Below are positions 5,052 through 8,761 of a stretch of 41,299 bases of DNA, piece after piece. The notes under the pieces are model-generated. The model was not told the DNA's origin. It was given only the letters and a program-made list of their open reading frames with translations, and ran no database searches. How positions within the stretch are numbered: position 1 is the first letter of the stretch; each line of letters begins with the position of its first letter. The position numbers were made by a program, and so were the translations under genes. The stretch is from positions 1-41,299 of the forward strand of contig JAFZYD010000050.1 of assembly GCA_017616475.1 (NCBI GenBank). Reading direction: 5' to 3'. The stretch is from Bacteroidales bacterium. Lineage in GTDB: Bacteria > Bacteroidota > Bacteroidia > Bacteroidales > UBA932.

Positions 5052-5498
5052 ATGATCAATTTTATCGGCGAATACAAAGCGAAGGTGGACGACAAGGGGC
5101 GACTTGTCTTCCCTGCGGCCTTCAAGGCCATTTGCGGGGAGAGCCTTGCCAAAGGGTTCGTCGTTAAAAAAACTTTGTTCGCGAACTGCCTCGAGATGTA
5201 CACGTACGAATCGTGGGAAAAAGAGTCCGAGGCAGTGCGATCAAGGTTGAACTTCTTCAACAGGGACGACGAGCGTTTCTGGCGTGCCTATACCAGCAGC
5301 CGCACCCTGGTCGTTCCGGACGAGAAACTCGGCAGAATCTCCATCCCCAAAGAACTTCTGGAATCGGTAGGTATCGAAAAGGAAGCCGTCTTCTGCGGGA
5401 GGGATTTCAAAATAGAGATTTGGGCGAAGGATAGCCTCGACGCCACCAATTTATCCGACGATGATTATGTAGCACTTGCAGAAAAGACGCTTGGATAG
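5052..5498 (+). CDS. mraZ: Transcriptional regulator MraZ
   Basis: 148 residues, first gene of the division and cell-wall cluster. MraZ is a DNA-binding protein built from two AbrB/SpoVT-like swapped-hairpin halves. Both are visible: FIGEYKAKVDDKGRLVFPAAFK near the N-terminus and VVPDEKLGRISIPKELLESVGI around residues 90-112, each with the conserved D/G-R-I/L-x-x-P core. In other bacteria it binds repeats upstream of its own gene and represses the dcw operon; the periodic repeats at 4967-5013 fit that role. Its stop is 16 bases before the rsmH start. Length and order are normal for the family. Confidence 0.95.
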   Translation: MINFIGEYKAKVDDKGRLVFPAAFKAICGESLAKGFVVKKTLFANCLEMYTYESWEKESEAVRSRLNFFNRDDERFWRAYTSSRTLVVPDEKLGRISIPKELLESVGIEKEAVFCGRDFKIEIWAKDSLDATNLSDDDYVALAEKTLG

Positions 5499-5514
5499 GA
5501 AGGAGGTATCGGTT

Positions 5515-6396
5515 ATGTCTGAATATCATACACCTGTTCTTTTGAAAGAGAGTGTATCCGCCCTTTCCATTAAGCCAAACGGCGTTTATGTAGATGCAAC
5601 ATTCGGCGGCGGCGGCCATAGCAGAGCAATTCTGGAGCAGCTGTCGGCGGGCGGGCGTCTCATCGCCTTTGACCAGGACAGCGACGCGCTGGCCAATGCG
5701 CCCTCCGACGCCCGCTTGATCCCGGTGCACTCCAACTTCCGGTTCGTGCACAACTGGGTGCGCTACCACGGGTTCGAGGCGGTGGACGGGATTCTGGCAG
5801 ACCTGGGGGTGTCGTCGCACCAGTTCGACACGGCGGAGCGCGGCTTTTCGTTCCGGTTCGACGCCGAGCTGGATATGAGAATGAACAACGAGGCGCAGCA
5901 AAGCGCCAAAGATATAGTGAACACCTACAGCGAAGAGGCTCTGGAGAGAATCTTTCGCGAATACGGGGAGTTGAACAGCAGCAGGCAGATGGCCCGCCTG
6001 ATATGCGAACGGCGCGCGGCCGGGGCAATAGCCACCACCGGGCAGCTGAACGCGGCGCTGGAGAAGGCCCTGCCCTCCTTCGCGCAGCACAAATATCTGG
6101 CAAAGGTCTACCAGGCGCTGCGCATAGAGGTAAACGGCGAAATGCAGGCGCTGGAGCGCTTTATGCCTATGGCGGTGCGGTCGCTGGCCCCGGACGGAAT
6201 TCTGGCGGTGATAACCTATCACTCGCTGGAAGACCGCATTGTTAAGAACGCCCTCCGGGATGCCGTCTCCGAGGGGTTGATGAAAAAAGTGACGGCGAAA
6301 CCCGTGCTGCCCGCAGAAGAAGAGATTGCCGGCAACACACGCGCCCGCAGCGCCAAGCTCCGGGTGGCAAAAAGAACGGAAATGAACTACAAGTAG
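5515..6396 (+). CDS. rsmH: 16S rRNA (cytosine-1402-N4)-methyltransferase
   Basis: SAM-dependent methylation of C1402 in 16S rRNA. Start chosen at ATG 5515 (293 residues) because AGGAGGT at 5501-5507 sits 7 bases in front and the protein then begins MSEYHTPVLLKESV, the family's normal N-terminus; the frame is open to 5476, but that would overlap mraZ. The SAM-binding motif VDATFGGGGHSRAIL is near residue 30, DLGVSSHQFDTAERGFSF near 100-117 and TYHSLEDRIVK near 240. Second gene of the dcw cluster, as in most bacteria. This Shine-Dalgarno is unusually good for the window, where most genes have none visible. Confidence 0.97.
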   Translation: MSEYHTPVLLKESVSALSIKPNGVYVDATFGGGGHSRAILEQLSAGGRLIAFDQDSDALANAPSDARLIPVHSNFRFVHNWVRYHGFEAVDGILADLGVSSHQFDTAERGFSFRFDAELDMRMNNEAQQSAKDIVNTYSEEALERIFREYGELNSSRQMARLICERRAAGAIATTGQLNAALEKALPSFAQHKYLAKVYQALRIEVNGEMQALERFMPMAVRSLAPDGILAVITYHSLEDRIVKNALRDAVSEGLMKKVTAKPVLPAEEEIAGNTRARSAKLRVAKRTEMNYK

Positions 6397-6411: not shown

Positions 6412-6747
6412 ATGGGTGCCAAGAAAAAACTGCTCTCTTGGTTCACCGGTTTGTTCGGTGGAGAGTATATAACAAAAAAAGGTGTTGACAGGTAAATCCC
6501 GTTCATCTTTTTCTGTTTTATACTGGTGAGTCTCTACTTGATGTGGGGGCTGTGGGTAGAGGACAGGATGGTGCTCATAAAAAACAACAACAAGGTGCTG
6601 GAAGACTTGAAGATAGAGTATCAGGAAAAGGACCTGCGCCTCACCGGCCTGGACCAGCGCACCCGCATAGAAAAGATGCTCATATCGGGGGGGAACACCT
6701 CCCTCCACGCACCGGAGAACCCGCCCAAACGGATAATTATTGAGTAG
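6412..6747 (+). pseudogene. ftsL: FtsL-like division protein interrupted by in-frame TAA
   Basis: Position between rsmH and the division transpeptidase, small size and topology identify FtsL, the single-pass partner of FtsB/FtsQ in the divisome. From ATG 6412 the frame reads MGAKKKLLSWFTGLFGGEYI to residue 27, then TAA at 6493-6495, and continues in the same frame with IPFIFFCFILVSLYLMWGLW (the membrane segment) and an extracytoplasmic coiled-coil-like part, ending at TAG 6745-6747. Without the stop it would be a normal protein of about 111 residues. A single C-to-T change (CAA to TAA) would explain it. The nearest in-frame restart is GTG 6526, which would lose half the membrane helix. It may be a sequencing error, a real lesion, readthrough or reinitiation. 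Confidence 0.8.
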
Positions 6748-6748
6748 T

Positions 6749-8761
6749 ATGAAGCAGAATGCACTAAAAGTCGCACTGGTATATGTGGTGTTCTTTCTCA
6801 TAGCGATTACCGCTGTGGTAAGGATGGTGCATCTGCAGTTCTTTGACAAGGACATAAAGTTGGACGAGTACAATATGCTGCTCACCCGCCAGGACCCCAT
6901 AGAGCCGGTGCGCGGCAGCATTCTGGCGGCCGACGGGCGCCACCTGGCCTTCTCCACCCCGGAATATTTCATAAGGATGGACTGCACAGTGGCCCGCGAC
7001 ACCACCTTCGAGAACAACGTCCGCGGCCTGGCGGAGGCGCTCGCGAGCGGTTTCCGCGAGAAGAGTGCAGACGAATATGAGCGGATGTTGCGGGGCGACC
7101 GCGCCGCCGGCAAACGCTACACCAAGCTGCTCAAGCAGCACGTCGGCTACGACGAGATGAAGACCATAAGCGAGTATCCCATCCTGAGGCTTGGCAGCCG
7201 TCGCGGCGGCCTCATTGTGGAGAAGATAGACCACCGCGAATACCCTTATGACAAACTGGCCTACCGCGCCCTGGGCTACCTGCGCAGCAGCGAAGAACGC
7301 CCCAAGATTGGCGTGGAGGGAGCTTTGGATTCAATATTGCGCGGCAAGCCGGGCCTGCGCCCTATGCGCCGCGTTGAGCACGGCAACTGGATTCCGGACG
7401 CCCTGTATCCGGAAATTCCGGCGGTGAACGGCCAGGACGTGCAGATTTCCATAGACGTAGATATGCAGGACATCGCCCAGAAGGCGCTGCTGCACAAGAT
7501 TGAGAACGAGGCGGACCTGGAGGCAGGCACCGTGATTGTGATGGAGGTCGCCACGGGCGAAATACGCGCAATGGTGAATATGGAAAAGGACGAGCGGGGC
7601 CGCTTCACGGAGCAGTACAACTACGCTATTGGCCGCCTTGGCGAGCCGGGCAGCGTGTTCAAGCTGGCAACCCTGGTTACCGCGCTGGAAGACAAGAAGA
7701 TAACCCTGGACACCCGCCAGCCGGGCGACGTGTTCTGGCACTATTGGAGGGTCAAGAAGCCCTTCGAGGACACCTACCTGCGCAACTACAGTTCCATTAC
7801 CATCCGCAAGGGTCTGGAGATATCATCCAACAACGTGTTCCGCCGCATAGCCGGCGAGAAATACGACAAGAATCCGCAGGATTTCGTGGACAAGCTCAAC
7901 AACGAGCGCCGCATAAGCTACAACTACGACTTTGACCTGCCGGGTATGGGCAAGGCCCGCATCCGCGACCCCAAGGACCGCACCTGGAGCCCCGCCGACC
8001 TGCCTCAGATTGGTATGGGATATGCCGTACAGCTCACTCCGCTGCACATTTTGAGCTTCTACAACGCCATTGCCAACGATGGCATAATGGTTAAGCCGCA
8101 CCTGTTCGTGAACCTGCAGCGCGGCGGCAACATAGAGTATACCTACCCCATCGAAACAATAGGCCGCGTCTGCTCCAAGGAGACCGCCGCCCAGGCCAAG
8201 GAGGCGCTGCGCGGGGTGGTTATAGGCGAAAACGGCACGGCGCGCCGCGCTTTTGCCAATTGTAAGGTGCACGTGGCGGGCAAGACCGGCACCGCACGAA
8301 TCTCCCTGCCGCAAGGCGGTTATATGGACGCATCGGGGCGCAAGAAGCACCAGGGCTCTTTCGTGGGCTTCTTCCCGTACGAGAATCCTAAGTATTCCAT
8401 AATCGTGGTCGTTTATTCCAAGCTGGCCGCCAAGAACTTCTACGGCGGTACCTGGGGCGGCCCGGTGGCTTGTGAGATTATAGACAACATATACGCATCT
8501 TCTCCCGACTGGAACACCCCCATAGTGTCGACCGGCGCTATGCCGGCCATAGCTGAGGTCACCGACAGCCGCGAAAGCGACGGCAGTGTGCCCAACGTAG
8601 TGGGAATGGGCCTCAAGGACGCAGTTTATCTGCTTGAATCCCAGGGCTATAAGGTAGAATCCAAGGGCCACGGCAAAATTGTGGAGCAGAGCCCGTGCGC
8701 CGGAGCCAAGGTAGATGCGGACACCAATTGTGTAATTCTTTCTTTGGCAGAGAAGCTATGA
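6749..8761 (+). CDS. ftsI: Division-specific penicillin-binding transpeptidase with PASTA domain
   Basis: Septal peptidoglycan transpeptidase (PBP3/FtsI class), working with FtsW. Start chosen at ATG 6749, one base after the ftsL stop; a TTG 9 bases upstream is in frame but overlaps ftsL. 670 residues. An N-terminal membrane anchor spans about 7-27, followed by the PBP dimerisation domain (QDPIEPVRGSILAADGR). The transpeptidase domain has the nucleophile motif S302-V-F-K305, an SxN motif at S359-S360-N361 and K512-T-G514. A PASTA domain (VPNVVGMGLKDAVYLLESQG) closes the protein, as is usual in Bacteroidota. The stop overlaps the murE start as ATGA. Confidence 0.95.
   Translation: MKQNALKVALVYVVFFLIAITAVVRMVHLQFFDKDIKLDEYNMLLTRQDPIEPVRGSILAADGRHLAFSTPEYFIRMDCTVARDTTFENNVRGLAEALASGFREKSADEYERMLRGDRAAGKRYTKLLKQHVGYDEMKTISEYPILRLGSRRGGLIVEKIDHREYPYDKLAYRALGYLRSSEERPKIGVEGALDSILRGKPGLRPMRRVEHGNWIPDALYPEIPAVNGQDVQISIDVDMQDIAQKALLHKIENEADLEAGTVIVMEVATGEIRAMVNMEKDERGRFTEQYNYAIGRLGEPGSVFKLATLVTALEDKKITLDTRQPGDVFWHYWRVKKPFEDTYLRNYSSITIRKGLEISSNNVFRRIAGEKYDKNPQDFVDKLNNERRISYNYDFDLPGMGKARIRDPKDRTWSPADLPQIGMGYAVQLTPLHILSFYNAIANDGIMVKPHLFVNLQRGGNIEYTYPIETIGRVCSKETAAQAKEALRGVVIGENGTARRAFANCKVHVAGKTGTARISLPQGGYMDASGRKKHQGSFVGFFPYENPKYSIIVVVYSKLAAKNFYGGTWGGPVACEIIDNIYASSPDWNTPIVSTGAMPAIAEVTDSRESDGSVPNVVGMGLKDAVYLLESQGYKVESKGHGKIVEQSPCAGAKVDADTNCVILSLAEKL

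Follow-up and report, generated by a model that had tools for sequence, protein, structure and literature searches.

Does a member of the Bacteroidales really carry a stop codon inside ftsL, or has one base of its draft genome been misrepresented? The question is raised by the window, the whole 41,299-nucleotide stretch of DNA analysed here, in which a single frame of 112 codons runs from ATG 6412 to a closing TAG at 6745-6747 and contains, at codon 28, a TAA that is in frame with both. A sequence-only reading had described this as an FtsL broken immediately before its membrane helix with the same frame on either side, and both points are confirmed. The stop divides 27 residues from 83, and the helix is encoded directly behind it. 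On its own, the 83-residue part matches the Pfam family PF19579 (FtsL_2) with 37.7 bits against a curated cut-off of 24.6. The 27-residue part has no match in Pfam but can be aligned to the N-terminal part of FtsL from congeners. These two results together assign both halves to one gene. The locus is thus a single Bacteroidota-type ftsL in which the uninterrupted reading frame expected of such a gene is cut by the TAA (Table 1).

Table 1. Position and identification of the interrupted ftsL and its neighbours in the window.
Feature	Position	Strand	Basis
mraW (rsmH), intact upstream neighbour	5476..6396 (mechanical ORF start)	+	PF01795, E 2e-98
ftsL N-terminal cytoplasmic part, 27 codons	6412..6492	+	Alignment with congeneric FtsL; no Pfam match of its own
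In-frame TAA	6493..6495	+	Sense codon in 24/24 aligned congeneric copies
FtsL membrane helix and outer coiled part, 83 codons and stop	6496..6747	+	PF19579, E 1.9e-9
GTG proposed earlier as a restart, inside the membrane helix	6526..6528	+	Hydropathy; codons in relatives
ftsI-type penicillin-binding protein with PASTA domain, intact downstream neighbour	6740..8761 (mechanical ORF start)	+	PF00905, E 6e-44; PF03717; PF03793

The flanking genes had been called intact, and this is borne out for MraZ, MraW and the PASTA-type FtsI/penicillin-binding protein, each of which is an open frame matching its own Pfam family. No further lesion was found in the neighbouring genes scanned. Judged by Pfam matches within the window, the interrupted gene occupies the place between mraW and ftsI that membership of PF19579 requires, and the 11 closest relatives have alignable open segments on both sides of ftsL (by alignment, the Pfam scan being confined to the window). 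The draft assembly to which the window belongs, as contig 104, comprises 1.67 Mb in 109 contigs and is estimated to be 82.8% complete. Within that incomplete assembly ftsL gave a single match, and no second copy was found. Outside the window, contig 4 of the same genome (G000) carries an open DivIC-family gene (PF04977, 29.8 bits; locus L001, 3508-3738, minus strand), a possible partner of FtsL.

Intact copies of ftsL are the rule in the genus. The genus set comprised 26 genomes, the window's own included, 25 of them with an ftsL match and one (G001) without. The best match is open in all 24 other genomes, and the comparison of this codon with related genomes that had been suggested as a check returns a sense codon in every one of the 24 aligned copies. 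The residue there is glutamine in 11 (the closest relatives), lysine in seven, tyrosine in three, arginine in two and histidine in one, which agrees with the proposed origin of the stop by one C-to-T step from CAA. Left out of the alignment were L001, the short second match in G018 (L027) and G001. One tyrosine (L015) was taken from the translation, and this copy is absent from the list of start codons used below, which covers 23 relatives. Identity over the part behind the stop is 75-79% in the 11 closest congeners and 49-55% in the 13 others.

A wider scan of genome contigs with an FtsL fragment returned 11 loci, ten of them 75-80% identical and one 37%, and at least seven belong to genomes already in the genus set. 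By their titles all are records of Bacteroidales/Bacteroidia MAGs, seven from the stomach of goat, sheep, yak or water buffalo and one from horse faeces, with two bearing an RUG name (for rumen) and one giving no host. No same-species locus was apparent among the 11, in a scan from which the window's own genome and very near ones may be omitted; an exact pattern search of viral contigs, with the same possible omission, yielded no match. In a family-wide sample PF19579 was matched in 289 of 299 genomes, including 142 of the 144 of good quality, and in three of 14 control genomes, one of these above the cut-off. Recurrent internal stops in ftsL across the family were considered and rejected: at least 18 matches had been flagged, and among the matches listed, which do not include the window's own ftsL, all 18 flagged stops proved to be the gene's own terminal stop, within the last few residues.

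How unusual such an interruption is for this genome was gauged on 275,825 bases, made up of 20 stretches and the window. In a best-of-six-frames test, 42 of 1234 stops with long open flanks showed same-frame coding signal on both sides. Position 6493 is one of them, and its two-sided signal is more than chance. An ATG lies within 15 codons of 36 of the 42, and the 35 of these apart from 6493 itself look like gene ends when their residues are inspected by eye. Of the six without a near ATG, L039:675 precedes a tRNA gene, and none of the remaining five yields a pair of pieces that join in one Pfam family. For three of those pairs (L044:229, plus strand; L052:15819 and L048:1476, both minus strand) neither side has a significant Pfam match; weak same-frame coding signal is seen on both sides of each, and they are probably shadows or gene ends. 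These three weak cases aside, no other recognisable gene cut by an in-frame stop was found in the 275,825 bases. Since the test recognised ftsL alone, internal stops appear to be rare in this genome. The simulated sensitivity of the flag (1336 of 1500 stops caught, 0.89) is optimistic, the simulation having used ORFs of at least 200 codons preselected as best frame, and it does not extend to short genes such as ftsL. A plain ranking by codon score had been dropped, as antisense shadows and gene junctions dominated it and 6493, with an upstream score of 0.7, fell outside the top 45.

The genome uses the usual genetic code, and a changed code is unlikely. The statement that TAA serves as an ordinary stop in murD, mraY and truB holds: the MurD, MraY-type glycosyltransferase and TruB family ORFs, identified by Pfam family matches, all terminate in TAA, as ordinary genes of a recoded genome would not. 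TAA also accounts for 27 of the 42 flagged stops (6493 included), more than any other stop codon, and most are followed by a next gene. Among 33 tRNA matches in the 82.8% complete assembly, ARAGORN read 32, none with a stop-codon anticodon; the one left over, at a contig end, matched in part and scored below the threshold. The same reading placed a tRNA-Pro with anticodon agg, unusual in bacteria, on contig 15 between two tRNA-Ser genes (L067:1140-1215, minus strand).

The part of ftsL behind the stop still looks constrained. Its pN/pS averages 0.251 (range 0.19-0.34) over the 11 pairs that include the window and 0.176 (0.058-0.255) over 54 pairs of relatives, one of 55 having been dropped from the pN/pS comparisons for a pS of 0.15 or less. 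Window pairs are also raised in mraW (0.250 against 0.231) and in the available part of ftsI (0.230 against 0.175); some of the excess would thus appear to be lineage-wide. The high level of synonymous difference (pS 0.45-0.74 in window pairs) makes this a coarse test. The window lineage alters four of 56 otherwise invariant columns behind the stop, while each relative alters 0-2 of 52-54. All four private changes (A to V, E to D, H to Q and V to I) are conservative, and set against 11 of 513 columns in mraW and ftsI of the same lineage they give a Fisher p of 0.0505, a mild hint of relaxed constraint. The higher range of the window pairs and these private changes count against a mere error in the assembly. 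From the pattern as a whole, a real lesion would probably be young compared with the divergence of these species, or ftsL would still be translated.

We consider it probable that the TAA is a consensus error or a minority variant at one base of the draft assembly, and that this base is unrepresentative of the organism. The window would then hold an ordinary Bacteroidota ftsL with one consensus position wrong or drawn from a minority strain, and the living population would most likely make full-length FtsL. Observed directly are the stop itself, the intact flanks and frame around it, and a sense codon at this site in each relative aligned. An error or variant is favoured because all 24 congeners are open, ftsL has a single match in the assembly and both sides of the stop keep FtsL sequence. 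The assembly is a fragmented draft, a lone interrupted gene in the bases sampled is to be expected of base errors that are random and rare, and pN/pS behind the stop is close to the window-pair values of mraW and ftsI. The reported role of the protein points the same way: the available text of PMC11988411 describes FtsL as essential in Staphylococcus aureus, and that of PMC10390529 describes impaired division on C-terminal shortening of Escherichia coli FtsL. Any need for FtsL in the window's organism would follow by analogy with the reports from these two species.

A real mutation would leave an identical sequence picture. Of the options that had been listed for the stop, an assembly error and a real lesion, if young, fit best, restart is weakened and readthrough finds no specific support. 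We rank second, as unlikely, a nonsense mutation that arose very recently in the strain sampled. It would be tolerated if that strain were a dead end, if the organism could partly do without FtsL or if an unsampled change compensated. A single substitution with all else intact is what such an event would produce, the mild excess of private changes behind the stop agrees with it, and a compensating gene could be missing from an assembly of this completeness. Against it, the assembly offers no second ftsL copy, and a null ftsL should not last if the gene is essential; nearly all good-quality genomes of the family sample match PF19579. If the mutation were real, a stop immediately ahead of the membrane helix would be tolerable in a divisome gene, which bears on the need for the FtsL cytoplasmic tail in Bacteroidota.

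It is improbable that the stop is real and leaky, with readthrough or a suppressor tRNA yielding enough full-length FtsL. A cell may require little of a division protein, and the continued constraint behind the stop (pN/pS about 0.25) agrees with a leaky stop. Yet no stop-reading tRNA was found among the 32 read from the incomplete assembly (one partial match lying outside that reading), an internal TAA was recognised in no second gene of the sample, and the site is open in all 24 aligned relatives, so that the stop is not a conserved device.

About as improbable, in our judgement, is translation that resumes past the stop and gives a short FtsL without its cytoplasmic tail. The helix does begin immediately behind the TAA, and the available text of PMC11988411 reports that S. 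aureus FtsL can do without its N-terminal region, but also that the cytoplasmic domain is essential in E. coli. The first common in-frame start codons past the stop (GTG 6526, TTG 6538 and ATG 6541) all fall within the helix, however, and the best 19-residue hydropathy drops from 2.31 for the whole to 0.74 from the GTG and -0.08 from the ATG, the two that were scored. Keeping the helix would require a weak start codon such as ATC at 6496. Among the 23 relatives the place of GTG 6526 holds GTG in three and ATG in three, and that of ATG 6541 holds ATG or GTG in eight; neither place shows the pattern of a kept start. The earlier suggestion of a restart at GTG 6526 is weakened accordingly, with the helix only partly kept and a start codon in six of 23.

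We see no sign of a device exploiting the ftsL stop, and neither readthrough nor restart has specific support. That the stop is fixed in the species, with near-cognate re-initiation giving a tail-less FtsL or efficient readthrough giving a full-length one, is highly improbable; if true, an essential divisome gene would be split or regulated by a stop. Decoding of TAA as an amino acid throughout the genome, for which ftsL codon 28 is the sole support, is contradicted by the TAA-terminated ORFs, the flagged stops with a next gene behind them and the tRNAs, and its probability is close to nil.

With a consensus error or minority variant as the preferred explanation, the locus as it stands is mainly a warning that a lone stop in a draft assembly should not be taken for biology. 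Isolated nonsense calls that hinge on one base are a known kind of event in draft metagenome assemblies; our literature search found no paper on them. Compared with the PF19579 FtsL_2 of the mraZ-mraW-ftsL-ftsI-mur cluster, the window's ftsL is alike in profile, in place and in N-terminal sequence, and differs by one in-frame TAA at codon 28. Compared with nonsense calls in draft metagenomes, it is alike in consisting of one substitution, with open relatives and no lesion in the scanned neighbours; it differs in that the gene is thought to be essential, and hence it stands out.
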